Below are positions 13,166-58,185 of a stretch of 64,000 bases of DNA, one piece after another. Where the stretch lies: NCBI GenBank assembly GCA_946699065.1, contig CAMPDV010000062.1, positions 19,160-83,159 of the forward strand, read 5' to 3'. The number at the start of each line of letters is the position of its first letter. The first letter of the stretch is position 1. The position numbers and the translations under genes are program-made. The notes under the pieces were generated by a model. The model made no database searches and was not told where the DNA came from. It worked only from the letters and a program-made list of their open reading frames with translations. The stretch is from Loxodes magnus. Taxonomy: Eukaryota; Ciliophora; Karyorelictea; Loxodida; Loxodidae.

Positions 13166-13248
13166 AGTATACCCGCCGGATTATACCCGCCGGATTATAC
13201 CCGCCGCATTATACCCGCCGGATTATACCCGCCGCATTATACCCGCCT
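13166..13248. repeat. GC-rich 14-bp tandem repeat
   Basis: Six near-identical 14-bp units with the core TATACCCGCCG(G/C)AT lie head to tail. A partial duplication of TTGGAAGTATAC sits just upstream (13,147-13,171) and a C7 run at 13,267-13,273 follows. The GC content contrasts sharply with the flanking DNA of roughly 80 percent AT. No coding frame spans it. Function unknown. Confidence 0.8.
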
Positions 13249-14896: not shown

Positions 14897-15077
14897 TCAA
14901 ATCATCACTACAATAACAAAATGAATCTTACGTCCTAAGTTATATTAATATTTATTACCCCCTAGTAATAATTTAAAATAGACATACATTCTGAATTACT
15001 AATAACATAAATCATACCACCTAAATAATATAAACCAGTACGATCTGAAAATTAAAAAAAACTAAACATAAACTTAC
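14897..15077 (-). other. Unique micro-exon block 3' of the array and stop
   Basis: After the last array slot (TTT, 15080-15078) come introns of 33, 21, 27, 26, 24 and 24 nt, separated by exons ATC (15044-15042), GTG (15020-15018), AAT (14990-14988), GGG (14961-14959) and GAC (14934-14932). The final exon from 14907 is TG ATG ATT followed by TGA. In phase 1 this reads YREWGLMI then stop. The introns start GTA and end TAG or CAG. TGA close to the end fits a code in which TGA terminates only near the mRNA 3' end. Confidence 0.85.
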
Positions 15078-18000
15078 AAACTTTTTTTAAATCTAACAAT
15101 CAACTTACGTTCTTTTTTTAAATCTAACAATCAACTTACCTTCTTTTTTTAAATCTAACAATCAACTTACAGTCTTTTTTTAAATCTAACAATCAACTTA
15201 CCAACTTTTTTTAAATCTAACAATCAACTTACTTTCTTTTTTTAAATCTAACAATCAACTTACGTTCTTTTTTTAAATCTAACAATCAACTTACCTTCTT
15301 TTTTTAAATCTAACAATCAACTTACGTTCTTTTTTTAAATCTAACAATCAACTTACCAACTTTTTTTTAATCTAACAATCAACTTACCAACTTTTTTTAA
15401 ATCTAACAATCAACTTACAGTCTTTTTTTAAATCTAACAACAACTTACCAACTTTTTTTAAATCTAACAATCAACTTACTTTCTTTTTTTAAATCTAACA
15501 ATCAACTTACTCGCTTTTTTTAAATCTAACAATCAACTTACCTTCTTTTTTTAAATCTAACAATCAACTTACCTTCTTTTTTTAAATCTAACAATCAACT
15601 TACTCGCTTTTTTTAAATCTAACAATCAACTTACTCGCTTTTTTTAAATCTAACAATCAACTTACTTTCTTTTTTTAAACCTAAAAATCAACTTACTCAC
15701 TTTTTTTAAATCTAACAATCAACTTACCTTCTTTTTTTAAATCTAACAATCAACTTACGTTCTTTTTTTAAATCTAACAATCAACTTACTTTCTTTTTTT
15801 AAATATAACAATCAACTTACTCACTTTTTTTAAATCTAACAATCAACTTACAGTCTTTTTTTAAATCTAACAATCAACTTACCAACTTTTTTTAAATCTA
15901 ACAATCAACTTACGTTCTTTTTTTAAATCTAACAATCAACTTACCTTCTTTTTTTAAATCTAACAATCAACTTACGTTCTTTTTTTAAATCTAACAATCA
16001 ACTTACGTTCTTTTTTTAAATCTAACAATCAACTTACTTTCTTTTTTTAAATATAACAATCAACTTACTCACTTTTTTTAAATCTAACAATCAACTTACA
16101 GTCTTTTTTTAAATCTAACAATCAACTTACCAACTTTTTTTAAATCTAACAATCAACTTACGTTCTTTTTTTAAATCTAACAATCAACTTACCTTCTTTT
16201 TTTAAATCTAACAATCAACTTACCTTCTTTTTTTAAATCTAACAATCAACTTACGTTCTTTTTTTAAATCTAACAATCAACTTACGTTCTTTTTTTAAAT
16301 CTAACAATCAACTTACTTTCTTTTTTTAAATATAACAATCAACTTACTCACTTTTTTTAAATCTAACAATCAACTTACTCACTTTTTTTAAATCTAACAA
16401 TCAACTTACAGTCTTTTTTTAAATCTAACAATCAACTTACCAACTTTTTTTAAATCTAACAATCAACTTACGTTCTTTTTTTAAATCTAACAATCAACTT
16501 ACCTTCTTTTTTTAAATCTAACAATCAACTTACGTTCTTTTTTTAAATCTAACAATCAACTTACGTTCTTTTTTTAAATATAACAATCAACTTACTCACT
16601 TTTTTTAAATCTAACAATCAACTTACAGTCTTTTTTTAAATCTAACAATCAACTTACAGTCTTTTTTTAAATCTAACAATCAACTTACCAACTTTTTTTA
16701 AATCTAACAATCAACTTACGTTCTTTTTTTAAATCTAACAATCAACTTACCTTCTTTTTTTAAATCTAACAATCAACTTACGTTCTTTTTTTAAATCTAA
16801 CAATCAACTTACGTTCTTTTTTTAAATCTAACAATCAACTTACTTTCTTTTTTTAAATATAACAATCAACTTACTCACTTTTTTTAAATCTAACAATCAA
16901 CTTACAGTCTTTTTTTAAATCTAACAATCAACTTACCAACTTTTTTTAAATCTAACAATCAACTTACGTTCTTTTTTTAAATCTAACAATCAACTTACCT
17001 TCTTTTTTTAAATCTAACAATCAACTTACCTTCTTTTTTTAAATCTAACAATCAACTTACGTTCTTTTTTTAAATCTAACAATCAACTTACGTTCTTTTT
17101 TTAAATCTAACAATCAACTTACTTTCTTTTTTTAAATATAACAATCAACTTACTCACTTTTTTTAAATCTAACAATCAACTTACAGTCTTTTTTTAAATC
17201 TAACAATCAACTTACCAACTTTTTTTAAATCTAACAATCAACTTACGTTCTTTTTTTAAATCTAACAATCAACTTACCTTCTTTTTTTAAATCTAACAAT
17301 CAACTTACGTTCTTTTTTTAAATCTAACAATCAACTTACGTTCTTTTTTTAAATCTAACAATCAACTTACTCGCTTTTTTTAAATCTAACAATCAACTTA
17401 CTCGCTTTTTTTAAATCTAACAATCAACTTACTTTCTTTTTTTAAACCTAAAAATCAACTTACTCACTTTTTTTAAATCTAACAATCAACTTACTCGCTT
17501 TAATCATATATTTGTTGAAACCAATAATTACAATCTGATCGAAACGATGAAAATTTATTTTACAGTCTAAAAAAGTATATAAACACTATAATACTATCTA
17601 AAATATTATTTTTTATTCTTACCCCCTGGAATAATATAATTAAGGCTTACATCCTTTAAGAAAAAAAACGTAGTAAATCTTATACTTACCTTGTTCTTTA
17701 TTTAGATTAAAAACTGTTTACTATCTATATTATTTATAAACGGCGAACGTTAAATTTGAACTTACTGAATTCCATTTGTAAGTTCTCACCATTCAAAATA
17801 TTATAACTATCTACTGTTTAACTGTCATCCAAAACAACCTTATTCTTAACGATATTCAAACCGTTAGGTAATAACTAAGTTTTTTATTTAATCTATTCCT
17901 TTATCTATTCGATGGTAGTCTCTTGTTTTACTTATAAAGATACTGTTTTACCATTAGGCGATATAATAGTTATCTAGATGTTCGATGGTTTATTTTACTA

Positions 18001-18789
18001 AAGAATATTTTGAGTTTCTTGAGTTTGTTAAGGCTGATCTACTGGTGATATTTTTTACATTGAGATCAACTGCGCTTGTAGAGAAGATAACTACTATTAC
18101 TAAATTTTTACTTAATCACTTAGGTTTTGTATTTCTTTCTTCAATTAGTTATTTTCCTATGTTACTTTAGTAAGATTAAACTTGCAAGAGTCTAACTCCT
18201 CAAAAACTTTAACCGATACCTGATTGTTCTACTGGATGGTCTTTTAGGCATCAGCTACTAATTTTGTTACTTATTGCTCACTCTGATGAGATAATTATCC
18301 TTACTAAACAAACTACTACTAGTTGTTCCCTTATTTATCCATAAACTACTTTTAAATTTTGAAAATCCTTAACTATCCTTGGATTTATTTATCCTGCTAA
18401 ATTAACTATCTTTGTAGGTTGATATTTTCCTTTAACAAATAAGTGTTTACGTGCTTAATCAACTACTATATGAATTTATTTTAGACATTAGCCAATAGTG
18501 CCTACGCTTGTCGTACTCTTAAAGATTGATTCTCTAACGTCGTTCGACTTTCTACGAGGTTCTTTTGTTCAAGATGCTTGAGTAACTAAGCGTCTTTTTG
18601 TAAATTTACTGGATGAACATTATGAACTTTTTAGCAATTTTAAATAACACATTTGATTGCCTAACTTTTCTAATACTAATCATTGACGCAGGTATAGCAT
18701 ATGTTATGCTTACATGGTAGCAACATTGGGATTTTCATCTACCCATCAAAATCTCCTTGACACTAAAGACATTTAGCAATCTAGGACAT
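14897..18789 (-). CDS. RING-coiled coil-Ubl protein with micro-exon tail
   Basis: Candidate RING-type ubiquitin ligase. Exon 1 (18789-17766, 1024 nt, phase 1) starts MSQIAKCLQCQGDF. A C3HC4 RING is visible at residues 7-50: CLQC, CKH, CYTC, then CVIQNC. A long Gln-rich coiled coil follows (about 60-270), then a ubiquitin-like domain (about 275-341): ITIISPNGKTVSLQV, TIEQIKEQI, SYNILNGENLQM. Downstream, the exon/intron pattern CT...AC on the plus strand (GT...AG on the minus) repeats 92 times with internal exons of 3 nt, except one of 6 nt. The last exon gives the stop TGA at 14899-14897. The sum of exons is 1311 nt, 436 codons plus stop, with no other in-frame TGA. The tail reads FNKQGWDNYSMKTT, then tandem KKQQELDL octads, then FVEQEQIDQELYREWGLMI. 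Exon 1 has no frame break. Splicing is inferred from sequence only. Confidence 0.85.
15078..17497 (-). repeat. 31-bp tandem array of 3-nt exons and 28-nt introns
   Basis: Seventy-nine 3-nt slots separated by 78 spacers that are nearly all 28 nt. On the minus strand each spacer starts GTAAGTTGATTGTTAG and ends AAAAAAAG. The spacers are almost invariant (minor variants with TTAT for TTAG, GATTTTTAGG, and one 1-nt deletion near 15,430), whereas the slots vary: AAC, AAG, ACT, TTG, AAA, CGA, TGA and one TTT. Variation is thus concentrated in the three bases between AG and GT. Slots 24-74 follow a higher-order cycle of eight units (about 248 bp): AAC AAC AAG AAC TTG ACT TGA AAA in minus order, with occasional single-unit duplications. 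Read in phase 1, set by exon 1, the slots encode KQQELDLK repeats and the TGA slots are split across codons. Confidence 0.95.
17498..17765 (-). other. Unique micro-exon block 5' of the array
   Basis: This part is not tandemly repeated yet has the same architecture. Introns on the minus strand are 41, 26, 36, 25, 25, 28, 29 and 34 nt; all start GTA and end AG. Exons between them are ATA (17724-17722), AACAAG (17695-17690), GAT (17653-17651), GGG (17625-17623), ATA (17597-17595), ACT (17566-17564) and ATT (17534-17532), leading into CGA (17497-17495), the first array slot. Joined in phase 1 they read NKQGWDNYS. Eight unrelated intron sequences all leaving exons of 3 or 6 nt is the strongest argument that the array slots are exons. 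Confidence 0.85.
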
Positions 18790-24149: not shown

Positions 24150-24943
24150 AAATGTTAAGAGTTTTGGAGTTCTTCGGGATTCCAACCGATTTCGCTCCGC
24201 CTTTTTTTTAACGTGGATGTATACCACGGCCTTTTTTTGAATGTGGGTGGCTACCACAATGAATTTTCCATGTTACCACTAAATAATTTCTATTTATAAA
24301 TTCCTGAGTCGGTTATTCAAAGTTTGTTTAACATCCTTCATGTTTTTATTTCTTCTCTTTTTTTCAATTTTTATAATTTTTAACAATTTTTTAATAAGTG
24401 ATATTTCGACCTACAACATCAACAATTTTTTGTCTATTTTTTTTTATTCAACTAAGGCAAAACTAATTTTTCTATTTGTTCTATTCTTTTAATTAAACTT
24501 TTATCAACATTTTATTCTATATTTATTTCTTAATCTTTTGCTTAAGAAGGGAGGATTTCAATATTCATGTTTACCCCTTGTTTGAAATTATTTTAATATT
24601 GAGTATAGAGCTATTGTTCTGTCACAATATTGTTTTATATAAGCTATTTCCTAAGAATTAATAGTTCTTTGTGTTGATCCACAATGTTATTCATAAGCTC
24701 TCTAATTCTTTCTCCTTGATTATATGTTTCCTCTTCATATTTAGAAATTAATTTTTTCATCTTTTCCATTTAAATTGAAAGCGAAGTGCTCTCATTAACT
24801 TGTCCAACCATTACGTTGCCTTCTGAAGAGGAGCTTTATAAGTGTTCCATTTATTTCTACTTCTTCTCTAGTTCTTTGTTAGCTCTTCTTCTTGCATTCC
24901 TTGCCTAATTTTTAGATAGTCGAATATTCTATTCCATTTCCAT
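24150..24943 (-). mobile_element. ORF1-only unit with coiled coil, copy E
   Basis: From ATG 24943 one frame stays open for about 190 codons if TAA/TAG are Gln: MEMEQNIRLSKNQARNARRR, a coiled coil around KMKKLISKYEEETYNQGERI, then RIEQIEKLVLPQLNKKK near 24,440, where TGA pairs follow. It is Gln/Glu/Lys-rich, helical, with no catalytic motif. The 3' end near 24,155 carries two short hairpins on the plus strand (GTGGATGTATACCAC at 24,213-24,227 and GTGGGTGGCTACCAC near 24,243), a plausible 3' recognition structure. Size of about 800 bp fits copies A-C, but the sequence is clearly diverged from them. Confidence 0.5.
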
Positions 24944-26285: not shown

Positions 26286-26349
26286 CTTTGATTAAAGTGC
26301 GCGTAGCGCCACAATGGTGCGCAGCACTATAAAAAGTCAATTGAATACA

Positions 26350-29300
26350 AATTCTTCCTCCAAGATCCCTTGTGGTAATAAATATTCCTCTATTATTTCG
26401 TCAATCTCTTGTTATTCTTCTTCTTCCTTCTACTACAGTATTTCGCTATTTATTATTCTTCTTTTTACTATTCCCTCACTATAAGCCTTTTGAATTTTAT
26501 CTTATATTTCCATTTCATTATTATTTCTATATCTTTTTCTTTTTATTAAGTTTTTATATATTCAAATGAATTATCCTTTTCCAGCCCTATAATCTTTTCC
26601 AATTTCTTTCTTTCGATCAATTATTCCTTCCTGATATCCTTTTTTCCTCTGCTTTAAAATTGTACTTATATAGTCTTTTACTATTTAATCTACTTATGTT
26701 CTATGTTTTATTTCTTATTTTCTTATAAATTCCTATTCAATTTAATTACATTTCTTCTAAATTTCTTATGCACTTTTCTCTTCCATCACTGTATTCTTCA
26801 CATTCTTCTATTATATGTCTTTCATCTACTTTTGATTTATTGCACATCGGGCATTCGCTTTTTTTCACCAATTGTCTTTCTTTAAGCAATCTTGACTTCC
26901 ATTGTATCTTGCTCTTAGTCTAAAAATATAGCATATTTCATCTTTTCTGTATTTGTTATATCTCAGATAATTTGCTGGTTCTTTAATATATTTATCAAAC
27001 CAATACACTCTATATTATCATTTCGTTACCATTTAATCCATTCTCCATCTGTCTTCCATATTTGTACGATATTCTCATATATTTTTACTAATTTTTTCTT
27101 TCCCTGTTTTATTGTTGTTTCCGTCATCTATAAACAGCTCTACATCTTTGATTTATATCTCTTCTTTTATTAACGTACAATACTATTCAAATATAAAATT
27201 CTCTTCTCTATTTATCTCAAACATTATCCCATCCAATGTTTTCCCTTGATTACCTATTAGTTTACTTCTTAATCTTAATATTTTTTATCATAAATAATGT
27301 TTAAACTTCATAAATTGCAATTCGTGTTCCAAAATCTCATTTTCCACACAAAATGGGGCATCCATTATTGCTCTCAGTGATCTTCTTTATAGAAATTCTA
27401 ACTATTCCATTGTTTGTTTACCAATAAACTATTCACAATATGGAACCATTTCAGTACCATAACTGAAAACTGAATTCACAAACGCTTTTATTATCATTCC
27501 TGCATTAAACGGAGCCAATCCCTTATTTATTGTTATTTTTCCTATTGCCCATGCTTGTATCTTTTACGCTATCTCAAGTCTATTATCCATATGTTTAAGA
27601 TAACTAATATTCTCTTCTATTATATGTCCAAGATATTAAAATTCTTTTACCCTTTATATTTATAATTAACCTATTTGAATTGTATTGCTAATATTCATTA
27701 ATTCCTTATTTTCTTCGTTTTTCACACCATTCATTTCGTCTTATCTGCTATTTTCAAATTATATTTTCCTGCTCATTTCACTAGTGCATATATAACATCT
27801 TCCTTCTTTTCCATTTCACTTACCAATGCTATATCATCCGCATATGCAAAACATCCTGCAAATACTTTTTGTGTCTACCCTTTTTGATTCCTATATTATA
27901 TACTGATGCCTAATTTTCTCTTTTCTAACTTATGTAATAATTTTCTCATTATTATATTAAATAGTTATGGTGAGGTTGTGCTACCTTATTTTACTCCTTT
28001 GTTTGTTGAAAATGCTTCTGCAATTGTATCATTAATTTTTAAATGAATTTCTTCTCCGCTATAGAAGTTTGCTAAAAGTTTAATTAATTATTCTGGTACC
28101 TGTAATTCATTTAATATTTCTCATATATCACTCCTCTATACTGAATCATAGGTTTTTTGAATGTCTACAAATAATACAAATGCAATTTTATTGTTTTTAT
28201 TATCCATTCCTAGACTGTTCTTAGATTAAATATTTGTTATGCACAAGATTTCTCTTTTCTAAACCTATATTAGTATTCGCTTTCTTGGTTATGAAGGTAT
28301 GATTAGATTTTTTATAAAATCCATCTATCTATAGTTTTCAAGGCGTGATTTAAGAGAGAAATCGGTCTTTAATTTAAGGGTTCTAATTATCCTCCTTTTT
28401 TATATATAAAGTCTATATATTGTTATTTCATTTCCTGCGGTATTGTACCTTCTTCTAAGATTTTAGCTATCATCTTGCAGGTTATTTCTATTAATTTTTA
28501 GCCTCCTGCTATAATTGTGCCGGTTTGGATAGTATCCGGCCCGGCCGCTTTTCACTTGGCATTTTGTTAGAGGCTTTCCCATATTTCGTACTCATTAATT
28601 TCTATTTTGTTTTTATTTTTATATGCTTCCGGCAATGTGTTATCTCCTTCTTCATATAATTTTCGTCACACTTCTTTGAATCTTTATATATCTTCTTTTA
28701 ATAGCGGTATTCATTAGTTTTTTTTCTTTTGATTTAATAAATTTTTTATCTTTTTTCACATTTCTGTTAAGTTTTCTTTATTACATTATCCATAAAGATG
28801 TTAAATTAGTTCTTTTAATCCTTTTTCCTTGCATTAATGTATTCCTTTATTACTCTTTAAAATTCCAAATAAACTTCATCTGTACTAATTTCTTCGAACC
28901 TTCTGCCATTTTTAATCATTGCTTTCACTTTTTTGCTGGATTATCTAAAACATTTATGTCATAATTTTGTTGATTCTGTGTACTGGATCCTTTTCTTACC
29001 TTCTTTTATCTCCTCACATATCTGTTTTACTCTACCTTAAATTTGATTTTTTCATCACTTATACATTTCTTCCCCATTCATATATTTCGTTTCCTCTACT
29101 TAAATACTTTCTTGCATAAATTCAGAGAATTTTAATTATATTTATTTTCTTTTCAATAGTTCAAAATTTAGCTTCTTTTTATATTCTTGTTTATTTATAT
29201 CTTCGCTAATTCACAATTACATTATTCCTGGTCTGTGGTCTCCTATTACGTATGAATAATAAAAGTCGCTTTTAATAATATTTTCTTTCATTGATTCTTC

Positions 29301-29898
29301 TATTATAAAATAGTCTATTTTATACTCCTTATTTTGGTAGACATACGTACCTAGATTGGCTGGGTCTATGCATATCAGATTGTTTTACTGCATGTACTGC
29401 GTAAGTCTCCTACCCGCCGAGTTTGTTTCTCATGGAGGTCACTTCTGCATATGCGCATTTCAGTCCCCTACCATTATTATATCAAGTCCTTTTTCTTACG
29501 CTTTTAGTTTCATTTCATTTACTACATTATAAAAAGGTTCATATTAATCAGTTTCATTTGCTACTGAGCATATACATTTATAACTGCTATCTTTTTTTAA
29601 CTTCCATAGCAATCACACGAGCTCCTCCAAACAGTGTCATTTAATTTGCTTCACTTTCTATCTGCCTAACTTCTTTGCTCAATTCATTTTTGATATAAAA
29701 GGCCACTCCTTTTCCTTTTTTGGGGCCTAATTTGGTTACGCTTTTATATCCTGCAATCCTGCACATTTCATTTTAATTTTCCAGTTGAATTTCTTATATC
29801 GCCATGATAGAAATATCTTTATAGTTCATAAAAGTGCCTAAAGCATTTTTTGCGCTTATTATTCCCCTTACATTTGCCGTACCAATCTTTACTATCAT
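26350..29898 (-). CDS. LINE 1 ORF2: endonuclease and reverse transcriptase
   Basis: The N-terminal AP-like endonuclease starts MIVKIGTANVRGIISAKNAL, with IMAIQEIQLE (metal-binding Glu) and, near 29,450-29,480, MVGDWNAH, whose Trp is TGA. RT motifs: VLFVDIQKTYDSV (A, near 28,170), KGVKQGSTTSPQLFN (B, near 27,960-28,000), FAYADDIAL (C, 27,825-27,860). A C-terminal zinc motif ECPMCNKSKVDERHIIEEC lies near 26,800-26,860. The product would nick target DNA and copy the element RNA at the nick. It is largely open under TAA/TAG=Gln and TGA=Trp, with a few frame changes near the C-terminus. No RNase H was noticed. Confidence 0.85.
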
Positions 29899-29899
29899 T

Positions 29900-31526
29900 T
29901 TTTCCTAATCCAGACTATTTCCTTTTTCAGATGTTTTTTCGCTCTTTACTCCATTTATTTCTTCCTATGCTTTAATTTAAATTTAGCGCTACTTCACCTC
30001 TTCTTATTAGTTTGTTTCCTTCTCCTTAGATTTTTCTTCATTTCTTTATTGCTTTTCTACGGCCTCTATATTTTTTGATCTTTTTGCTCTATAAAATTTG
30101 ATTATAGTTTGTTATTTTCATTATCTTCTGTTCTCCCATATCTTCCTTGCATGCTCTTCTCTTAATTCTTAATCTATTTTAACTTCCCTTTAATTTTCAT
30201 CCATTTACTTGCTTTTCACAAACTTTGTCATGTTACTTTATTTCTTATCACTTTCTCTTTGAATTACGTTCTATCTCTACATCTTTCCATTTGACTTTGC
30301 TTATAGTTCTTATCTCTTTATCTTTTATATCTATTTTATCATCTCTGTGTCTCAGCTTCTTGTAATCGGCCAGTCCCATAAATGAGAGTAATAGTATTTA
30401 AACAGTCTTTTGGAATAAAAAATTATTTCTTTTAATTTAGTTTACTTATTTTAAAGTTTGACTTAGTTTTCCACTTACACTTACCCTTACACTTCACCTC
30501 TATCCTCATTTTGTTCCTCTATGATCATTTTGTCCTCTACAACCATTTACTTGTCTTCTGCTTGACTTTTTCTAGACCTGGCTTATTAAAAACTAACTCT
30601 ACTTCTGCTCTTTATTTTTCTAATTATTTTAGATATTTCCTTTTTTCCTTTGCTGCTTCTACTCTTCTGCACTATTTCTCTGTATGTCCTTTTTTTCCAC
30701 ACTGATTACACTTGCACATCATTGGATGATATAGCCTCATTTTCATACCGTGCAGATTTATTACTTCAGGTATATTGTTCGCTTCTTCGTTATTTTATAG
30801 TTCCACATAGACAACACATTTTCCTGTCAGTATCGTGGTGTTTTCAAACGTGTGTATTAAATCTCCTTTAATCTAACCATATTATGCCAAGACCTCTTTT
30901 ACTTCATGCATATTTGAGTACTCATTTAGCGTAAATTGTACTGGGTAGTTAAGGAAGTCGAAATACTATTCCATATCCTTTGCCACTATTGCGATAACTG
31001 CTCCTTGATATTCCCATTGTCTATTTTTTTAAAGATTTTGTATTTTTCTTTGTTATTAAAGATCACATAGACGATTCCATTTGGTTTAACTGTGAACCGA
31101 GCAATTGCTTATCCATATTCTTATCATAATCAAGCCCTAAATTATTTAATCACTGCTTACTCGCCAGCATTTTAACCATCTCATCCTATGTTATTCAAGT
31201 ATTGATTAAAATAGATTCCTACCACCATATCCGATAGGTCATTTAAGCATTTTCGTATACTTAGATTATTTAATCTTTGGCAACTCTCGCTTGCAGTGTT
31301 TCTCTGTTCCGATGTTGCATGATTATCTGCGTTTACTCCTTCTTCTGCAATCTTCCTACGTTTTTGTTTCCTCTCCCTTTTCTTTGTTCCATACCTGCTT
31401 TTAGTTATCTTATCAGTATAAATTTGGTTTCGGAAGCTTGTCCTATCTGATTGCCCTTTCTGTGCATCCAGGTAGTGAAATTGGTTCTCATTAACCAGGA
31501 TTTGTTTGTTGTAAGTGCAGCCTCCA
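29900..31526 (-). CDS. LINE 1 ORF1: RNA-binding CCHC protein
   Basis: Starts MEAALTTNKSWLMRTNFTTW at ATG 31526. After one frame change it shows a region conserved with LINE 2: VVGIYFNQYLNN, QEYGQAIARFTVKPNGIVYV (an RRM-like strand-rich segment), and after another change NYPVQFTLNEYSNMHEV. A zinc knuckle CNQCGKKGHTEKQC lies near 30,670-30,720, followed by a basic Glu/Lys/Gln-rich tail reaching the ORF2 start. The role by family analogy is binding of the element RNA in the retrotransposition particle. At least two frame changes break the ORF; one falls in an A7 run near 31,030. Confidence 0.75.
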
Positions 31527-31534
31527 TTAAAAAA

Positions 31535-31625
31535 ACTATTTATAATATTAAATATTAATATTGAAAGAGCTGCCCACTATTGAGGTGGTACGCGCTCTAT
31601 AATCATTTTTATTTATTTATGTAGA
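31535..31625 (+). mobile_element. Plus-strand LINE 3' terminus remnant
   Basis: The segment AATATTGAAAGAGCTGCCC and onward, with the hairpin arm GGTACGCGCTC, TATAATCA and (ATTT)n, matches the 3' termini at 9,465-9,530 (plus) and, inverted, at 33,582-33,612 and 26,292-26,325. It touches the 5' end of LINE 1, which lies in the opposite orientation, so LINE 1 landed in or beside an older LINE end. Confidence 0.7.
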
Positions 31626-31639
31626 AACAAAATTCTCAT

Positions 31640-32405
31640 CCATTGTAATATCCATCTACTCAGCTTTTATAGCTACCATCTGTATTACTATAATCATGAA
31701 CCGTTAAAATTGATAACTCGTTTTAACTTTGAGAGGGTGTGTCTGTTGCATTTAGAGGTAAGATAATATCTTTAAATATTTCAACTTTATAATCCTCTGT
31801 ATTTCCTACTTAAATTAGCTTAAATTTCAAGATGTTATATGTCTTGAACTTAATACTAATCAGTTACTTTTAGTCTATTTAATTTAAAGAGATCTAATCT
31901 AAAACTGAGTTTAAAGATAGCTCTAAACAATAAAATTAATATTTTATCTCACTCAAAGTCACTCTATCACCGAACTAGAATCATTAAAACTAATTTTTCC
32001 AAAGACTGCCAGAATTTCTGTAGCTAAGGATTAAAGTAAATCCCTTTTTGTAGTTTTAAGAATAATAGACTATGGTCTAAATCCTTAAAGAGTAATCTTC
32101 GTTAATAAGTAAGAAAAGCTTAGTGACTCCATATTCTACTATAGTTGATGAAATGTTTTCTTTTAAATTCAAGGACTTTTTTGGGAAGGATTCTGAAAAA
32201 TTGTTAATAGTTAAATCCCGTTGAAATACTGACTGCTTCATTGTATAATTAGATTCAGTTAAAAATGGAAGATTTGTCCAGTTGTAGTATTATATAAAAG
32301 CAAGCAAAGAGTTGAATTTTCTTAATCAGAAGGAAGTAGTATTTCTCCATTAGCGTTATAAACTGGTTTATTGTAGTCTGAATTAGTTATAGACTTCTGT
32401 TCCAT
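31640..32405 (-). pseudogene. Truncated host gene between two LINEs
   Basis: Minus-strand coding from ATG 32405: MEQKSITNSDYNKPVYNANG, GEILLPSDQENSTLCLLLYN. Then, in shifted frames, KQSVFQRDLTINNFSESFPK, LFLLINEDYSLRIQTIVYYS, YRNSGSLWKNQFQWFQFGDR, and near the end SILTVHDYSNTDGSYKSWVD. The strand-rich, Asn/Ser/Tyr-rich style resembles an extracellular beta domain, but I do not recognise a family. It ends where the LINE remnant begins (31,625), so the 3' part may be lost. Frame changes could be short introns; whether it is expressed is unknown. Confidence 0.45.
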
Positions 32406-33575: not shown

Positions 33576-33639
33576 TTATAGAGCGCGTAGCACCTCGTTG
33601 GTGCGCACCTCTTTAATAAATGTTTCAATACATGTCTAT

Positions 33640-36600
33640 TTCTTCAAGTAAGCCTTCAGGTAATAAAAATTCTTATCTTATTAGTTCCATATCTTCATCA
33701 TTTTCTTCTTCATTATCTCTTGTTCTTCTGTCTTCTATCTATCTACGTTTTATTGATTCTTTGTTACAAGCATCCATTATTTTTTCTTACATACTTTGCT
33801 AATTTTCGTTTCTAATTATTTTCTTCTTAATCAAGCTTTTATAAACTCATAAAAATTATCCTTTTCCTGTTCTATAATATTTTCCTATTTCTTTTTTTCA
33901 TTCGGTTTTCTTTTCTAAGTATCCTTTTTTTCTTTTTTCTAATATGTTTTTGATATAATCTTTTATTATCAAGTCAGTTTTAGCTCTTTTTTACTCTTCT
34001 TAGGTTCTAATGAATTTTTCGAATTTTGCCGTACCTCATATTATATCAAATAGTTCCATTCCTTGTCTCTCTACTCCTATTGTTCTTAACTTTCTAATAC
34101 ATATTTATCTACTTTCTTGGAATCTGAGCATTTTTCTATGATATGCCTTTCGTTTTCTCTTGCATCATTACAGAAAGAGCATTTGCTTGTCGCAACTAGG
34201 TGTCTTTCTTTTAAACAATCCTGGCTCCCATTACATCTCGTTCTTATTCTAAATATGTAGCATATTTCTTCTTTTCTATTGTATCTCAGGTAGTTGGGTG
34301 GTCCTACTACATATTCATCAAATCATGTTTTTCTATACTGTAGAGTTGTTATCATTTACTCCATTCTTTCTCTATCTTCTACGTATACTCTATGTTTTCA
34401 AATTGCCCGATTAATGTTTTTCTTCCCTTTTGATTATTATTACCATCATCTATAAATATATTTTTGTCTTCAATTTTTAATTCTAATTTTATTGTCGTGC
34501 AGTATTGTTCAAAAATAAAGTTCTCTTCTTTACTTAGGTCGAATATTAATCCATCTACTGTTTTTCCTTAGTTACCTATTAGTCTGTCTCTTAATCTCAG
34601 CGTTTTCTGCCATAGGTAATGTTTAAATTTCATAAACTGTAACTCGTATTCTATCATCTCATTTTACACTTAGAAAGGGGCATCTATGATTGCTCGTAAA
34701 GATCTTCTCTATATTATTTCTAATTTTTCCATCACTTATTTTCCTACAAATTATTCACAATATGGGATAACTTCTGTCCCATAGCTGAATACTGAGCTTA
34801 CGAACGTTTTTATCATTATTCCTGCATTATATGTTGTTAATCCCTTATTCATTGTTATTTTATCCAGTATTCATGTTTACATCTTTTATGCTGCTTCTAG
34901 TCTGTTCTCCATGTGTTTTTCAAAGCTGATGGTCTCTTCTATTATATGCCCTAGGTACTAAAAGGACGTTACTCTTTCGATTCTTAAATTTCCCACCTCA
35001 ATAGTATTGCCTATATTTTCTCAGTTTCTATTTTCTGCTGCTTTTCATATCATTCATTTTGTTTTATCTGCAATTTCCAGTTTGTATTTTTCTGCCCATG
35101 AGGTTAAATTTTTGATTACTTACTCTAATTATTCTCATTCACTTATTAAGGCTAGGTCATCTGCATATGCAAAACATCCTGCATATATTTCTTGTGTTCA
35201 TCCCTCTTCGTTTTTAAAGTCTATCGTAATTCCTAGCTTTTAATCTTCCAAGCTATGGAGGAGTTTTGCTATTATTAAGTTAAATAGTCTTGGCGACGTT
35301 ATGCTTCCCTGTTTTAGTCCTTTATTTGTCGCGAATGATTTCTATTTGTTCATTGATTTTAAGTTTAATTTCTTCTTCACAGTAGAAGTTTGCTAGGAGT
35401 TTAATTATCTATTCCGGTACTTTTAGATCGTTTAGGATTTATCATATATCTTTTCTTTGCACCGAGTCGTACGCTTTTTTAATATCAACAAATATTACGA
35501 AAACATCTTTTTTGTTCCGTATTGAACATTCCTATACTGTTCTTAGGTTGAAAATTTATAGTGAGCATGATTTTCCTTTTTTAAAGCCATATTAATATTC
35601 GCTTTCATCATTATGCAGATATCCTTATAGTTGCTAGAAAATTCATGCATCTACTATTTTTAAAGCATGATTCAGTAAAGAGATTGGTCTATAATTCATC
35701 GTGTCCATCTGTCCTCCTTTTTTGTGTATTAATATTATGTATTATTATTTCATCTCTTAAGGTATTACTCCCTCTTAAATCATCTTAACTATCATTTTAC
35801 ATGTTACTTCTGCTAGTTCTTTCCCGCCTGCTAATATTGTGCCTACTTGTATTTCATCAGGTCCTGCTGTTTTTCATTTCGCCAATTAGTTGATGATTTC
35901 TCAAATTTCATATTCGTTTACCACTATTTATCTCTTGTTTAAGAATTTAGTTGGTAGCGTATTATTGCCATCTTCATACAGTTTCTATCATTCATCCCTG
36001 AAAGTATTAACATCTTCTTTTAATAAGGGTACTCATTAATTATTTTTTCTATTAAGTAAGTTTTTTAGTTTCTTCCACATATCTGTTAGACTTCCTTTAT
36101 TTACATTGTCCATAAATAGGTTTAGTTAATTTCTTTTATCTTTTTTTCTTGATTAAATGTATTCTTATCTTACTCTTTGGTATTCTCTTTGATTCTCGTT
36201 TTATTGATTTTCATTTATTTGTTCTCTGTTCTTTACGCTTTATTTTAATCGTTTGCTGCATTTTCTAAAGATTTTATTACACTATTTTGTTGTTTCTGAA
36301 TATTTATATATCTTAAAGTTTTATGTTTTAAATTTTCCACATAACATTTAAACTCCTTCTTATATCTTTTTCTTTCATCATTTATAAGTCTATGTGCCGT
36401 TTAGGTTATCAATTTCTTTTTCTTAGAGATTTTCTTGTATAAATCTTTCAAATTTTTATCTCTTTTTTCTTTAATAGTAGGCAGTTTATTTTTGCTATCT
36501 TTTATGGCTTTCTTACTTCTTTACAATCTTTATCTATATAATACCAGGCCTATGGTCTCCTATTACGTATGAGTAATAAAAATCACTTTTTATCACCTTT

Positions 36601-37216
36601 TCTCTCATTCTCTCTTCGATTAAAAAGTAATCTATTTTATACTCATTGTTTTAGTGAATAAAGGTACCTATTTCAGTTGGGTCTAGGCATATTAAATTAT
36701 TCTGTTCCATAAACTGTGTCATTCTCTTTCCTGCTGAGTTTGTTTTCTTTGGCGGTCATTTTTCCATGTGCGCATTTCAGTCTCCTATTATCATTATATT
36801 AAGTCCTTTTTCTATTGCTTATAGTTTAAATTCATTCACTAAATTATAGAAAGGCTCATAATGTTCGTTGTCATTTGCAACAGGAGCGTAGACATTTATT
36901 ACTGCTAGTTATTTCATTATTTCTATTGCCATTACTCTCGCTCCTCCAAAAAGCGTCATTTGGTTTACTTCATTCTATATCTCTCTAATCTCCTTGCATA
37001 TGTCGTTTCTAATATAGAATGCTACTCCTTTTCCTTTTTTTGATCCCACATTTATTAAGTTTTTATATCCTGCTATATTACACATATCTTTTTAGTCTTC
37101 AATCTAAATTTCTTATATTGCCATTATGTGGATACTTTTTTGAGTCATGAATTTGGCTAGTGCCTCTTTTGCACTTCTTACTCCCCTAACATTTGCTGTC
37201 CCTATTTTTATGACTT
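33640..37216 (-). CDS. LINE 2 ORF2: endonuclease and reverse transcriptase
   Basis: Endonuclease: VIKIGTANVRGVRSAKEALA, IMAIQEIQIE, VINVYAPVAND, MIIGDWNAHMEKW (catalytic-loop Trp as TGA, near 36,770) and IGDHRPGII (36,540-36,560). RT: a motif B region near 35,310, FAYADDLALIS at about 35,150-35,185, and family-typical spacing to a C-terminal zinc motif KCSFCNDARENERHIIEKC near 34,130-34,190. Function as for LINE 1. The two ORF2s are clearly homologous but well diverged, so they are separate subfamilies rather than recent duplicates. Confidence 0.85.
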
Positions 37217-37229
37217 ATTCTTATGCTTT

Positions 37230-39017
37230 TTTTACACTCATTCCCTCTACTTCCTCTTCACCTTATTCTTCTTTTTATTCATCTTCCTTCTCCACCTTTT
37301 CTTCTTCTTATCTATCATTCTATGCTTCCATATTATTTCCTTTATTAGTTCTTTCCCCTTTTTTATCTTTTTCATCTTATTTTTATCTACCTTTTCATTC
37401 TTCTTATCTATTCTAATCTTTTTCCTTTTCCTATTAGTTGAAGTCGGATAATTGTTCATTTTTGTTTTTCGGTTTCTTAGCATAGTACATTCTCATTGAA
37501 GTTTGCTTCAATTTACTTCTTTCTTCTCATTTTTATCTTGCATCTTATTCTTTTTCTTCTTGAGTTTGTTCTATTTCTTTTTGCTTTTTTTCTTTATTTA
37601 CGCTTTTCCTGACATACTCCATTATACTATTTTGTTTATTTCTTATTTCTTCTGTTAGGGTTTATCGTTTTAATCATCACTTATCCTATCCTTTTCCCTA
37701 TTTTTCTTTATGGTATATTTTATTATTTAGTTGATTGTTTTCTATTTTATTTAATTATTTGAACATTTCTCTATCCCTCTGTCTTACATATGTCCAATTC
37801 CATTTTGATGAAAAATAATTTTTATTTATTCTTTTAGCATAAAAAACTTTTTATTATTTAATTGTTTAGTTGTTTTAATTATTTTTCTATTCTCCTCATT
37901 TTATTTCCTTCTCTTCTTCCCTTGATTCCTCTATAATCATTTATTCTTCTTCTCCAATTATCCTCTTATTTGCTTGATTTTCTTCAAAATCTGGTTTGTT
38001 TATTGTTAAAATAACTTCTCCTTCAAGCATCTCTAATTCTCTTGTATGTAGCTTTTTCCTTTTTGGTGCTTCTACCCTTCTGCATTGCTGGTCTGTGTGC
38101 CCTTTCACTTTACATAGGCAACAGATAAAATTTACTGGGTGTTATATTCTCATTTTGTTTCCATTCAAATCTATTACTTCTGGTATTCTCTTTGCTTCGT
38201 CTACATCCTTTAAATCTAGGTAGACTACACTGCTCCCTGTTAGCATTGTTGTATTTGGATATATGCTATATCTCTCCTCTTGATTTTCCATATTATCTTA
38301 TTACTTCCTTCATATTTGAGTATTCGTTAATTATGAAGTAAATTGGGTAGTTATGAATGTCAAAATATTCCAATTAGTTTCTAGCTTAGATAGGAATTCT
38401 AACTCCTTTGAATGTTCATTCCCTGAATTAAGTGAAATGTTAGTATCTTTTTTCATTGCTAAATACCAAGTATACAATTCCGTTTTATTTCACTATGAAC
38501 TTCGCCACTGCTTGTCCGTACTCCTTCCATATTTGATTTCTAAACACTTGTATAACTTCTTAGTCTTTGGCCTTTTTCTCTACTAAATCAGTGTTTTCCA
38601 AGTAATGGTTAAAGTAAATTGCGGCCACCATTTCTGATAAATCATCATAGGCATTTTAGTAGACCCTTTACATTTATTCTTAAGGGACGTTGGCTGAAAT
38701 GAGTTGTTCATTATTTTGTTAAATTATTACTTAGGTTGTTTACTTTTTTTACCACATTCCTTTCTTATTTTGTGCTCCTCCTTTTAGTAAAGTCCGACCA
38801 ATCATGGGTATATTGCTATTTTTTTTCTATTATTTCGTGTTCGTTCGGTCAGTTAGTTTGATCCTGCGTAGTCTGAGGTCTTGTATTATTAGTCTGGTTT
38901 CCATGCATAATAAAGAAGGTTGGAATAATTGAAGTTAAGATGTGGTAAAAGAAAGTGCTTCAGGTTTTCTCTCCTATTCTGAGGAGGTGGTATAAAATCC
39001 CTTCTTGAAGCTACCAT
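37230..39017 (-). CDS. LINE 2 ORF1: RNA-binding CCHC protein
   Basis: The leader frame reads MVASRRDFIPPPQNRRENLK. The conserved body, in another frame, reads YDDLSEMVAAIYFNHYLENT, IWKEYGQAVAKFIVKQNGIV (RRM-like, matching LINE 1), then EYFDIHNYPIYFIINEYSNM. The zinc knuckle CCLCKVKGHTDQQC lies near 38,085-38,130. A low-complexity Lys/Lys-Met/Arg tail (37,240-37,480) leads to ORF2. The N-terminal 60-70 residues differ completely from LINE 1 and instead match the ORF1-only family, which suggests recombination or 5'-leader exchange between elements. Confidence 0.75.
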
Positions 39018-42700: not shown

Positions 42701-43900
42701 AAATATTCTTTATTCCTATAGTTTGAATAATGTATGACGTTTATTTTTGTGATCATGCCATTTCCTATAACTTAAATAGAAATTTATATTAATCATAAGA
42801 ATATATGAAGAGTGACTGTAATCAGAAGTGTTGGGAAGGATATCATATGGCTCTAGTAGTTTTAAGCTCTTTAGTGTTATTGATTTATGTTCCTTTAGTT
42901 TGCTACTTAAGACCTATTTTTGAATATGCTTAGAAAGTTCATATCTAATAAAAAGCTTCATTCTTATCTATAAAGACGCTTATAATGCTACTCTTCGTAG
43001 TACTAAACAAAACCTTAGGCACAGTGAATGGCTAGCTATATGGATTAATTTATCTAATAATAACTTGCTCTTTTATACTAATCACTTGGAAAATAAAAAA
43101 TGCCTATAACTTTAGATTAGTAGATGCTTTATAAATTATAGTTCTAGGTATCATTTTATGAATCTCAGCTTTTGCTTGAATATTAGGATTCTGAATTGAA
43201 GCTCAAACTTATACTACGTTTAACTAGTAATTTTAGTGATAGTTTCACTTTTGATATTAACTTATGGAGTTTATTATATTTAATGAGAAATAGAAAAAAA
43301 TAGCTAATATTTTAACTTTCTAAAGACTCTCAACGAAGAAACCGAATAAAAGTTTAAACTCTATTTTGGAAGTAAAAACTAAGAACTGTTCGAAATAGAA
43401 AAAAAGAAAAATGAAAGATTAAGGAAAAAGAGATTAAGAAGCTGTAATAAAGTTAAATAACACAGATAAGAATAAATCAGCTAATAGAATAATAACATTG
43501 ACTATAACATTTCACTTAGAAACTAAGAGAAGTAGCATTCTTCTAAAAATACCAATCATAAAGTAATCCAAGAAGACAGTAATTAGATATACCCATTATA
43601 AGGAAAAATAGAAAAAACAATACCAGCTTAGGAAAATACTAATTTAAAAGATAAAAACTAAATATAGCAAGCAAATCTAGAATCCTTTTTTTGCAAAAAA
43701 TGTGGATAAAACGTTAAGAAAAGAGAACAAATCATAATGGAGTGTAACCATTTTATGTGTCATCCTCTTATTCAATAATATTAACCTTAACTATTACTTG
43801 AATGCTAACTTCGTTAAGCTAATACAAATTAAAAGTTTGCTAGCAATGCTACTAAAAGTTTATATCCACTACATAACTACATATATTAACCATTTAGTCT
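39794..43900 (+). CDS. Receptor-like multi-pass protein, PBP-I fold ectodomain
   Basis: ATG 39794 opens with a signal peptide, MKLFIACFFLARLSFSKAYS. The ectodomain shows features of the type-I periplasmic-binding (ANF/class C receptor) fold: LTPSNQDLEVATYNVLKQLG then W, GRVFLVGQAQDLHN, VASLGTYSSNTTIWLL and FIGATGLVQIEKN. In-frame TGA is Trp (QLGW). Hydrophobic segments near 42,125, 42,570, 42,850, 42,970, 43,040, 43,130 and 43,230 imply about seven membrane passes. A frame change at 40.6 kb is resolved by a 23-nt GT-AG intron at 40619-40641; others remain. The cytosolic tail holds a RING-like CKKCGQNV...CNHFMCH zinc motif near 43,690-43,770. It probably senses an extracellular ligand; the exact receptor class is uncertain. 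Confidence 0.6.
40619..40641 (+). other. Predicted 23-nt intron
   Basis: GTGATTAATTAC...AATAAG lies in the receptor gene. Its removal joins SNASKEIQ to FWLYNIQRNTIKAVQQITKN and restores the frame that continues as NSDLVFMGN. Length and GT-AG ends agree with the introns of the RING-Ubl gene. Confidence 0.55.
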
Positions 43901-44916
43901 AATTTTAAGAACCAATAAAATGAGTAAAGAGAAGATAAAAAAGGAATTATAGGATTTTATAACTAATCTAACAAATATTCCTTTGCTAATACTACTTTAC
44001 AGTGTCTGTTCTCTATTCCTAACTTCGTGCAAAGTATTTTATAAGTTGAGAATCATATAAAAAATCCTTAATAAATAGAAAACACGAAGCTTATCGAAAG
44101 TATGAAACTAATTCACTTCGAAATGGATAATTAAAGGGAAGAAGAAGGTTTAAAATATAGATGGATTCCATGATGAGATCGATAAAATTATTATAGCGAT
44201 TTTGAATAAAGTGAAGATTGCTACGAGTTCATTAAGAGGTTCCTTTAGTAATTGATGTTTGAAGAAACAGGATAACTTAAATAAATGATAGTAGGAGAAG
44301 CATCAGCTTAGAAATATTGAGATGAATGGAACTAGAAGAATACAAGTTTAGTTCATAAGCTATTTGGAGGTTTATTTTAACTGCATCTTAATTGCAAAAA
44401 CTGCTAATTTAGTTCCATAATGTATTAATCTTTTACTGATTTGAAAATATAGCTAACTGAAAGAGATTTAGAAAAGGTTTGAAGCGTTATCAAGAATCAG
44501 AAATTTTAGATACAAAACTGACTTGTAGAAACTGCTTATAAAGATTGACTAAGAAGACTAGTATTTTTATAGGTCCTAAAGTACTTTTCATTAGTATTGA
44601 AAGATTTATAAGGAATCAGTAAAACACAACTAAAATAATAGAAAACGTAAAAGTAAATCCATAGCTTTATTTATAAATGTAAGCTATTATATAAAAAACA
44701 AATGATATTAAGAAGTATGAACTGAGAGGAGTTATAATACATAGTGGTTAAGATTTGAAATCAGGACATTATGTTTGCTACGGAAAAAAGAGGAGAGAAT
44801 TGGTATTATTTTGCATGATGAAAAGTGAAAAAGTAAGTGTATGATTCAGAGTCGACATAAAAGAAATTTAGTATTGTCAAGCTTTTATTCTGTTTTATGT
44901 TGAGAAAGAAAGTTGA
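43900..44916 (+). CDS. Ubiquitin-specific protease (USP/UCH) domain
   Basis: Cys box region GFYNQSNKYSFANTTLQCLF at 43,952-44,010, QEF-like SEDCYEFIKRFLQQLM, a first CxxC pair (LNCKNCQFSS) and FTDLKIQL. A second CxxC (LTCRNC) then gives KVLFISIERFI, and the His box YELRGVIIHSGQDLKSGHYV lies near 44,720-44,780. The order is that of USP deubiquitinases. At the catalytic Cys position of the box there is Ser (YSFAN for the usual CYAN/CFMN), so activity is doubtful. A 1-nt change lies in an A run near 44,474. A 20-nt intron (43924-43943) would join this domain in frame to the upstream receptor tail, so it may be one fused gene. The likely stop is TGA 44914-44916. Confidence 0.75.
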
Positions 44917-50530: not shown

Positions 50531-53500
50531 ATGATAGCTACCATATTTATTTTTATTTCTTAAGCTCAAGTCTATTTTCTTGAAATTCTTGATCCTAATA
50601 TCCCAACTTATATCTCTCATGAAAATTGAGTAAAAAATAAAAGTTTCTATAGTTATGGATTGCAGTTCACATCTTAAAATAATTATAGCATTTCTGTTTG
50701 GTTACAATTTGATGAGAACTATTAGCATGAATGATGAGGATCATTTTTAATAATCAAAAACGGAGATTTTTATCTTGAGTTAGCTTTAAGATAAGATAAA
50801 AGTAGCTTGTAAACTTCTTTTTGAATAAGGAAATAAAGCCCTAAAAGACTAAGGTAATTGTTTGTATATTACAATTGTAAGTAATATTTGAGTATTTTTT
50901 TCGATGAAAGGGAGTATAAGTGGATAATTTGGACTTATGTTGACTCATTCAAATATAAATAATTAATTTATAACTAAATAATGAACTTTTTGATGACTTT
51001 TTAAATTTTGATGATAGTTGGATAATTTATGAAGGAAGTTACTCTCAAAATTTTAATTATAGAGGTTGAATGTACTCTTTAAGGTATTATTACACTTATT
51101 ATTTAAGTACTGAAGACATCATTTATTTTTTATAACTAATATAATATTAATTGCTATGTTCTTTGCACTAATGCTATGGAACTAACTAAGACAATTGCTT
51201 ATAATGTTAAAGCGGTTGAAAATTAGGATAAGATTAGTGCTACTGGTGAAAATAAACTTTCAATCGAAGGTGAATGTTCCTAATACTGTCCTGCTACTCA
51301 GCAAGATATTGATAGCAATGGATTGTGTGATTGATGTAATAAACTCTTAATTATTGCTTATAATGTAATTAATCAGGTCTTATGTGCACTTAATGCTAAC
51401 CTAGTTATTTTGTTTAAGAAGGATAATGTATCTCTTGCTAATCTTATAGTGAATTTTGTGAAAATTGTAATTAAACTTAATGCCTTAGATGTGAATCAAG
51501 TAAAAAACTTACTAATTTTACTTGCAGTGATGATTGCATAAGCAATGAATAAGATTACAATTTAGATAAAATATGTGAACCTTGTGGTAATCAGTGAAAA
51601 TTTTTGCAAGTTCTGCAGTAATTACTAATGCTCAGAATGCTAAAATGGCTATTACTTAGAAGGTATTTAATGGCTATGCATGTAACTAGAGTATAAATAA
51701 CTGTAATCAATGCACTTAAGATGGAAAATATTGCTATAAGTGTGATTAGAATAAAGGCTTAAAATTGACAAATAATACATGCTAAAATGAATGTACATAA
51801 TTTTAATAAGATTATGATTCAGATGGAATTTGCTTATAATGTAGCTTGTCAATACAAAACTGTCTAAGATGTACTAAAAACTACAAAATCTGTTAGCAAT
51901 GCATTTCTTATGAATATTACTTCCTATAGTAAGAAATTAAATGTGATTTTTGCTATAATAAAATTGACTAATGCTAAAGATGTAACTTATAAGGAAATAT
52001 TTGCAAATTATGCTTACCTACTTTTATTCTTTTTGATAATTCTTGTTTAATAAAATGTCCAAATAACACTTATTTTGAATATAATCAATCCTGTTATTAA
52101 TGCGAGAAAGAAATATGAAATGTGATTAATGTTCTTCTTATGGAGACGTATGCTTAAAGTGCTAATAAGGTTATTATTTACTCTAAAATTAGTGTGTTAA
52201 TTAATGTCCTTAAAATACATACTTCGAGTATAACTCTACATGCTAACATTGCAACTAAAGTATTTAGAATTGCCTCTTTTGTACATAAAAAGGAGAGAAT
52301 TGTACCAAGTGTGAAGTAGACTATTATTTATTTGAAAACTAGTGTGGTTTCAGAATGCCCAAGATAATATTGATAAAGTGAGAGCAATACTTGTGAAAAG
52401 TGCGAAAAGAAGATCCCAAAACTGTGAGGGAATGCACAAGAGAAGGAGATGTATGCATTTAATGCCTACAAAATTATTTTCTATAAAATGAAAATAATTC
52501 TATATTATGGTTAGTTTGCCAATTGAAATATTATTAAATCGACGGAATATGTTACTAATGCAATTTCAGTTTAGAAGTGCAATTAATTTTATAATTTCTT
52601 AGGGATAAATGAATGCGATATTTGTCCTAACAATGTAGATTTTATTTCAAAAAATGAATGTTTTAAATATATCAAAATAATGATACAGAGCATAATGAAA
52701 ATAAAGAAGACACTAAATCAAAAAATTAGATAACATCTTTTTAAAGTTTAGATGATTTTAGTATTTCAAATTCTTAATAAGTGATTATAAGTGCTACAAA
52801 TTTTCTTTAGTCTTCAGGAACTTATTCAGTGGTTCTGGCAATATAGTAACATTAGTTTTTAGTGCTTTCAGTTAGTCTGCTACTTCTAGTGGAACTTTTT
52901 TTCTATTATAAGCTCTTTTAACTACTTAACTTATCCTAACGAATGCATATATAGATGTTTTAACGATCTGAAGACATAAATGCATATTTTTTTTAGAATT
53001 TTAATAACAATTAACCAATAGGAGGGATAAATAACAACGATTTATTCAACTTTGACCTAGACTCTGATAAATTAAAAGCCGAAAAATAAATTTATATTCT
53101 TATGAACTATTAAAGTTATACTTTATTAGCCAATTTGGTATCTGCTCTTATTCCTCTTTTTCTTTTACTTTCAATTGATTTAATACTAAATTGCTAGGAA
53201 AAATTACATTAAAAAAGGGATAGAATGAATAAGAAGTAACTTTACAAATAGAGAAAATGTAACTCTTATCTATGTTCTTAAGACTCTTTAAATAAATATC
53301 GCAGCAATGCTTTAATTATATCATTTTAGTTTCAGTGATTTTTACACTGCTATTAATTCCTTGCTTGCTATAATTGTCTTAGATAGTCACTAAATACAGA
53401 TAATATAGATTTCTTGCATTATTCACTCATTTCTTATTGCTAGAAAATATTTCAAACTTAAGACCATTTATAAAAAAATAGTGAAAAAGAAATCGAAGGA

Positions 53501-54144: not shown

Positions 54145-55285
54145 TTTATAAGATCTTCTACTTGAGAAAAAAAAATCCACAAAATATAAAAAGACGACAA
54201 AAATAAAGCATCTGAAGATTATAACTTGACTACATGATTTAATTCTTATTTTAGATTTAAGCATAAAATTAAAATGAAATATTCTACTTATAATATTCAA
54301 GCTGCTAAGCAAATCTTCTATTTTAGAAAATGAACCACTTACTAAATTAATAAATATTTATACAATAAGTTTATTAAAAAGGATTAAGAGTCAAATAAAT
54401 AATAATATATATAAACATTTCTAGCTTTCGAGAAAAATTCTAATCTCTTTGATTTTTGTCATATTTTAGCTCTTAATTTAAAAATAAGAGAATAATTTAT
54501 TGATTAAAGCTGACTATATATAAGATTTTATTTAAGTAGAATTTAGAAATATTTAATAGGCATGAATAATAATAATAGCATAGACTTAATAACTTGATTC
54601 ATATGAATTATTATTAATGATAAATAGGATTTATAAATATATTAAGAATTTTACTTTTTAGAATTAATTCATTCAAATAGAATTAATAGTTAAATAGGTG
54701 TTAAGTTAATTTAGCTATCAAGTGCTAAAATTGTTTAATAAGTTAATAGTTTTCTACTATTATTAAACAATAAATTGGCGCTAAGATTATAATTCCCCTT
54801 TAAATAAATACTTCTTTAGATATTATTAAATTAAAAAAACTTAGGTGCTTAATTATATAAATTAGATTAAGATTGGGAATTAACTTATTTCTCTTAAAAG
54901 TATATTATCACTCTGATTTCTATTTATTTTCCTACTCAAATGCAAATTCGTTTGAAGCTGTAACTAGACTATCTTAATTATTTTAATATAATGCACTCAA
55001 ATTAGAGTCTTTGCTAACAAGATCATTTTTATCTTTTTTTGCTGAATATTACTAGGAATCCAAATTTAACTGAGCGACTTGAATACTTGAAACCTTATGC
55101 TAAGGATTCATTTAAGACGATGAAACATTTAGGTCTTACACTTATATTTAAGAGAAGCCAAAGTTAACATTTTAAAGCTAGTTTTTTTCGATAATTTTCC
55201 TCATTAATGAACTTTATTGTAAGTTGATAGAAGAAAATTATATGCTTTCATAAGCTTATTCTTCCAAAATTTTTTTAATTAGAAA
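54145..55285. other. AT-rich intergenic DNA between convergent genes
   Basis: The Cys-rich gene (plus) and the receptor kinase (minus) converge here. AT-rich; no gene recognised. Confidence 0.45.
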
Positions 55286-55292
55286 TTAAATT

Positions 55293-57584: not shown

Positions 57585-57589
57585 TTTTA

Positions 57590-58185
57590 ATCAAAGAAAT
57601 AAGTTTAATTGGCTTGAAAATTAGATCTAAAAGGGGTATAAAAAATCCTTTTTTATAATTAAAAACAATTGCATACCATTGCAGATTCTTATTACTAAGA
57701 TTTTCAATGCAAACTTAAAGGAATCTTTATATTGTAATAAATCCTTTCTATTCCAACTATCGACTCCTTACTTGCTAAATAAAATTTTCAACATTGAGAT
57801 AAACTTAGATAATATATTATAATAGAAGCATCTAACCAAATTACAACTCTATCGAGAAAATAAAAAAAGGCAGATATTTTCAAAAGGTTATAATAAGCAG
57901 GAGATAAGATTAACTAGATAATAAGTATATTGAATTGCACCCTTATTAAATAGTGCTTATAAAGATTATCTACCTAATCAGTGGATTAAAGTAAACTTGA
58001 TTTAGTTATAGATTAATTTTTATTTTAGCATATCTTTAAGCACTCTCTATTCATAAGATTTGAGCTAGAAATATCTTAATAAGCTTTACTATTTAAATAT
58101 ATCGATATAGTGATATAGTGATTTAATAAATACCTTAGATCTAACTACTTTATTTTAAATTTTTAACTGAATTCTTCTATTTATT
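57590..58185. other. Divergent intergenic region
   Basis: About 600 bp between the kinase (minus) and the Gln-rich gene (plus); it should hold promoters for both. No recognisable element. Confidence 0.4.

Follow-up and report, generated by a model that had tools for sequence, protein, structure and literature searches.

A candidate ciliate gene with a tail predicted to be spliced from ninety single-codon exons

Can the end of a protein be encoded in a long series of exons that are each only one codon long? This question is raised by a locus on the minus strand of a 64,000-nucleotide stretch of Loxodes magnus DNA, which was analysed as a whole (the window). The reading that we favour, and hold to be probable though well short of certain, is that the locus codes for a protein in a karyorelict-type ciliate. 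Spliceosomal introns of 21-41 nt would divide the sequence for the 95-residue C-terminal tail into 90 exons of a single codon, one of two codons and a short final exon. The parts of the locus are listed in Table 1.

Table 1. Layout of the predicted gene in the window.
Feature	Position	Strand	Size or basis
Exon 1: RING-like finger, Gln-rich middle, ubiquitin-like domain	17766..18789	minus	1024 nt; Pfam matches
Chain, 5' flank: 8 introns of 25-41 nt; exons 7 × 3 nt and 1 × 6 nt	17495..17765	minus	parse and null models
31-bp tandem array: 78 introns (28 nt in 77 cases, 27 nt in one), 3-nt exon after each	15078..17494	minus	TRF, parse, triplet order
Chain, 3' flank: 6 introns of 21-33 nt; exons 5 × 3 nt, then an 11-nt last exon with the terminal TGA	14897..15077	minus	parse and null models

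Read in table 6, exon 1 contains no TGA across 341 codons and ends after the first base of codon 342. A Pfam search of this exon returned ubiquitin (PF00240, 3.5e-9) above the cut-off and zf-RING_UBOX (5e-5) 1.5 bits under it. Downstream, starting at 17765, 92 successive introns of the form GTA...AG were parsed, 21-41 nt in length and 2582 nt in total. The array holds 78 of them (17494..15081), and 14 lie in its flanks. The internal micro-exons that remain number 91; 90 are 3 nt long and one is 6 nt, so that all are multiples of 3. All 92 introns interrupt the frame after the first base of a codon. The predicted spliced coding sequence comprises 1311 nt, or 437 codons, and its terminal TGA ends at 14897. 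The parse demands GT and AG but not the A after GT, which is nevertheless present in all 92 intervals. In the flanks the donor is GTA in 14 of 14 introns, and the acceptors are TAG (7), CAG (4) and AAG (3). Splicing is here predicted from sequence, and the parse reported is the one that maximises the number of 3- and 6-nt exons. The initial annotation had described 92 GT...AG intervals, 90 exons of 3 nt with one of 6 nt, a TGA end and a RING/Ubl exon of 1024 nt, and all of these figures were recovered exactly. Its exon sum, with the terminal TGA as the only one in frame, was recomputed with the same result. Before its end, the tail frame inherited from exon 1 is free of TGA; the alternative frames of the tail contain 11 and 10. 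As TGA probably also encodes Trp here, the lone in-frame TGA is weaker evidence than had been assumed. In the 500 nt past the 3' end of the chain, after the terminal TGA, the GC content is 16-20%. What the letters themselves establish is the chain, its frame, the GTA/AG ends, and a 3-nt spacing that persists despite varied intron sequence and length.

Because a single 31-bp unit with GT..AG and 3 nt makes the parse of the array automatic, the array was set aside and the flanks were tested for chance chains. With GTA donors and one exon size allowed at a time, the flank chains reached lengths of 6 and 5 for 3-nt exons, and no other size from 0 to 12 gave more than 1. When exons of 3 or 6 nt were allowed, the flank chains with GTA donors reached 8 and 5, compared to at most 4 in second-order Markov simulations (20,000 per flank). 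With GT donors and the same exon sizes, the 5' flank chain of 8 was found in none of 20,000 dinucleotide shuffles (largest 6), and the 3' flank chain of 6 in 2 of 20,000. The longest chain in the rest of the 64-kb window was 2 with GTA donors and 4 with GT donors, the latter scan leaving aside six exon 1 starts (17875-17807) from which the parse continues into the chain itself, two of them also giving 4. The similarity of flank introns to the array intron was no better than that of their own shuffles in 11 of 14 cases and somewhat better in three (chain numbers 0, 1 and 86). The 14 introns outside the array had been called unrelated in sequence yet spaced by 3 or 6 nt; the spacing holds, and by this shuffle comparison the lack of relation holds for 11 of them. 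The flanks thus appear to have kept donor, acceptor and one codon while most of their sequence diverged, and selection on splicing would be the likeliest reason.

The flank chains also bear on whether the region is spliced at all. Quite unlikely, in our view, is a non-coding or decayed minisatellite next to a RING gene whose frame stops earlier or continues into the first interval. The 31-bp unit, with putatively phased A-tracts, could persist for DNA shape, 31 bp being about three helical turns. Read on without splicing, exon 1 remains open as far as 17464 (table 6), and frame breaks are seen by eye in the neighbouring kinase and ubiquitin-specific protease sequences. Low-complexity tandem repeats are abundant in L. 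magnus genomes (231-359 Mbp annotated; PMC11441545). The flank units argue against such a minisatellite: at 24-44 nt they lie outside any helical phase and still keep GTA, AG and the 3-nt spacing, and their chains go beyond chance by shuffles and simulations. Ubiquitin homology gives a mixed answer. The Pfam score shows no preference for the spliced form: it is 42.0 bits with exon 1 alone, 41.1 with the spliced sequence and 41.4 with the unspliced one. In a PDB search, the spliced form aligned to the last ubiquitin residues and the unspliced form mostly only to residue 68-72. In the best chain the spliced form scored higher by about 2 bits for each domain, the two queries differing in length as well.

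Within the array, TRF reports a 31-bp repeat at 15081-17495 with 77.9 copies. The introns are identical in 68 of 78 units, the other 10 falling into four variants, and all 78 keep GTAAGT and the terminal AAAAAAAG, with the variants lying between those ends. The spliced array translates mostly as KKQQELDL octads. In 71 of the 78 units an in-frame TAG is present at intron nt 16. With this TAG as the acceptor, introns would be 16 nt and exons 15 nt long (ATTTAAAAAAAG followed by NNN), the exons encoding Lys-rich pentads (LKKEH and the like). Apart from the flanks, only a few array units would then have single-codon exons. The two acceptors lie 12 nt apart, and both may be in use. A parse of this kind stays open, with a coding sequence of 2163 nt in which 71 exons have 15 nt and 19 have 3 nt, and introns of 16-17 nt would be near the L. 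magnus mode (PMC11441545). We judge it unlikely. None of the 78 units has lost the AG at nt 28, compared with 6 that have lost the TAG at nt 16, which favours 28-nt introns without settling the matter. Moreover, the 12 nt between the acceptors would be exon, yet their seven A and AG are constant while the next 3 nt vary. No comparable second acceptor is present in 12 of the 14 flank introns, which have no other AG at least 15 nt from the donor. About ninety 3-nt exons in a row, as initially proposed, stand as the best reading, carried by the 14 flank introns, but not as the sole reading of the array, given the 15-nt exons possible in those 71 units.

If the tail does consist of serial single-codon exons, it may have grown by copying of a codon-plus-intron unit. 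Since each unit consists of a codon and an intron, slippage or unequal crossing-over would add or take away codons whole and leave the frame intact. Counted from TGA triplet to TGA triplet, successive blocks hold 10, 9, 9, 7, 1, 9, 8 and 4 units, followed by an irregular end block of 21. These sizes differ by whole units, as would be expected from slippage or unequal crossing-over of such units. The order of triplets is highly repetitive, with 44 distinct 4-grams of 75, where the minimum in 5000 shuffles was 66. An eight-unit order is modest by lag identity (0.40 at lag 8 and 0.42 at lag 26; shuffle maximum 0.417 in 2000 shuffles).

Codons and introns of the array have not changed at the same rate. 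In comparisons of neighbouring array units, 134 of 231 exon sites but 22 of 2100 intron sites differ, a 55-fold gap per site. Among 15 change events along the array, 10 are exon steps (p = 1.4e-7 if all sites are equal, a rough value as the events are non-independent). Plain duplication of codon-plus-intron units would give equal rates for codons and introns and does not predict the 55-fold gap. Were whole units duplicated, the codons would have to be under very strong selection, or the introns copied separately, to produce this gap. Another possibility, which we consider improbable but worth keeping in view, is that intron sequence was copied or replaced independently of the codons, in an introner-like or intron-templated manner. 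Introns would then have been placed 3 nt after the last acceptor, and the spliceosome would again handle about ninety serial 3-nt exons. Introner-type multiplication would be recognised by near-identical introns at many non-homologous sites; here 68 of the 78 array introns are identical although the codons between them differ, and all lie in one tandem array.

How could a chain of single-codon exons be processed? We propose that each intron would be recognised as a unit (intron definition) and that the introns would be excised one by one from the 5' side. After joining, every 3-nt exon would become the tip of a long upstream exon, and exon recognition would be unneeded. Ordered removal is proposed because introns only 3 nt apart could hardly carry two spliceosomes simultaneously. 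Intron definition would be natural in L. magnus, since its introns average about 19 nt (mean 19.3, mode 17 nt, 93% of at most 25 nt, 3n lengths relatively depleted; PMC11441545). As the micro-exons are all 3n and the introns share one phase, skipping would lose codons and keep the frame; the length of the tail may thus differ between transcripts through micro-exon skipping. The intron lengths count against this model. Only 5 of the 92 introns are at most 25 nt long, versus 93% in L. magnus, and 3n lengths, relatively depleted in that species, are not rare here, with 6 of 14 in the flanks (PMC11441545). In length, the chain introns accordingly differ from typical L. magnus introns, which are mostly of at most 25 nt and depleted in 3n. 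Elsewhere in the window no introns were established when the neighbouring kinase, ubiquitin-specific protease, Cys-rich and coiled-coil genes were inspected by eye for tiny introns. In the ciliate Stentor, with introns of 15-16 nt, excerpted literature places the branch adenosine about 5 nt before the acceptor.

The intervals might instead be internal eliminated sequences (IESs) cut from the DNA in macronuclear development, which we regard as very improbable. IES excision is generally TA-bounded or pointer-bounded, and the interval ends, which are the intron ends GTA...AG in 92 of 92 cases, do not fit either rule. Precise removal of many short DNA segments is known in ciliates, with a minimum of 26 bp in Paramecium (cited in PMC11441545), but canonical IESs are reported absent from L. 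magnus (PMC11441545). Coding on the plus strand was considered as well and rejected. A TGA-free frame of 865 aa crosses the array on that strand, the unit containing no TCA. Since the 31-bp period runs through all three frames and TGA may encode Trp, an open plus frame says little.

Micro-exons had initially been taken to occur only singly among long exons. This is contradicted by schistosome micro-exon genes (MEGs), with 10-20 serial short exons, and by the aphid megacycle gene, with more than 100 micro-exons. The MEGs resemble the present locus in having many very short serial exons, mostly 3n, so that skipping is frame-neutral (PMC10526429). Their exons are fewer and longer, 10-20 per gene and mostly 15 bp (range given as 3-81 bp in one place and 6-81 bp in another), their introns are long (0.1-5 kb), and no chain of 3-nt exons is described in the excerpted text (PMC10526429). 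Aphid bicycle and megacycle genes share the long single-phase runs of micro-exons (PMC9168663). The megacycle gene, in contrast, encodes about 2000 aa in little over 100 micro-exons, so that its exons are far above one codon, and bicycle genes have phase 2 and animal introns, whereas the break here falls after the first codon base (PMC9168663). The locus is predicted to have a long series of short same-phase exons (n = 91), as genes of the MEG and bicycle type do; the resemblance lies in the way of working, and membership of a family is not claimed.

Tetrahymena LRR genes are likewise ciliate genes that grew by tandem copying of exon plus intron in one phase, with LINE-like elements nearby; their 90-bp exon encodes a structural repeat, unlike the codon here, and in T. 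thermophila the introns of the young genes generally measure about 257 bp (PMC6564038). Inclusion of exons of 1-6 nt by splicing is shown elsewhere, but those described in the excerpted text are isolated and form no unbroken series (PMC4674806). Published L. magnus data agree with the locus in very short introns, in TAA/TAG as Gln and TGA as Trp or stop, and in a LINE-rich genome; they differ in that introns are mostly of at most 25 nt, and a micro-exon chain goes unmentioned in the excerpts (PMC11441545). The further remark that no described gene of this kind is known agrees with our search of open-licence PMC literature, which turned up no run of single-codon exons in any gene. The array unit had 0 matches in viral_contigs, and the peptide pattern of exon 1 gave 24 matching stretches, none of them a relative.

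Micro-exon genes are already known, but a splicing specialist should find the predicted unbroken run of single-codon exons surprisingly extreme. If confirmed, the chain would mark an extreme of serial exon size and provide a hard test of the smallest exon that splicing can handle. It would also mean that exons need no recognition of their own where introns are defined as units. The locus would offer a natural test of ordered splicing and a coding minisatellite that grows codon by codon. We would further expect genes of this kind to be missed by RNA mappers and gene finders with the usual exon anchors.

The genetic code of the window is probably the karyorelict code (table 27), in which TAA and TAG encode Gln and TGA is Trp or stop. 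Within coding sequence, TAA and TAG read as Gln and TGA probably as Trp. This use of TGA, together with the short introns, points to a karyorelict; Tetrahymena was considered as a source and set aside. Two LINE-type retrotransposon copies lie on the minus strand at 26300-31800 and 33600-39000; a frame at 35175-38297 (1041 codons) gives reverse transcriptase and endonuclease matches when TGA is read as Trp. Among 26 TGA columns between the two copies, 8 have TGA in both, 5 pair it with TGG and 13 with another residue, some of the alignments being out of frame. Columns with TGA in both copies or paired with TGG include conserved-looking sites such as FKHYL-x-QK and AK-x-KxAGPD, and the longer LINE frame has 15 TGA versus 3 TGG. 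In-frame TGA also occurs within stretches that match Pfam, once in a kinase (4.3e-39) and four times in UCH (4.8e-12).

The kinase gene lies on the minus strand at 54900-57600, its domain covering 176 codons; further on the frame is, by eye, broken several times by single bases, which may reflect a decayed copy, sequence error or another cause. A ubiquitin-specific protease gene on the plus strand (43264-44900) consists of two overlapping frames (4.8e-12 and 1.7e-15), and the usual catalytic-box cysteine seems absent there. A gene for a Cys-rich, probably membrane-bound protein follows on the plus strand at 50980-53340, with several frame shifts by eye; three pieces of it gave no match in Pfam. 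No Rfam family reached the gathering score in the window, and no tRNA was found in it. The Tetrahymena chromosome-breakage motif has one match with 2 mismatches in the window, which is at chance level. A GC-rich 14-bp tandem repeat, TATACCCGCCGGAT, is present in 5.7 copies at 13168-13247 within the AT-rich window, and a 30-bp repeat, GC-rich in part, occurs in two copies at 24199-24257.
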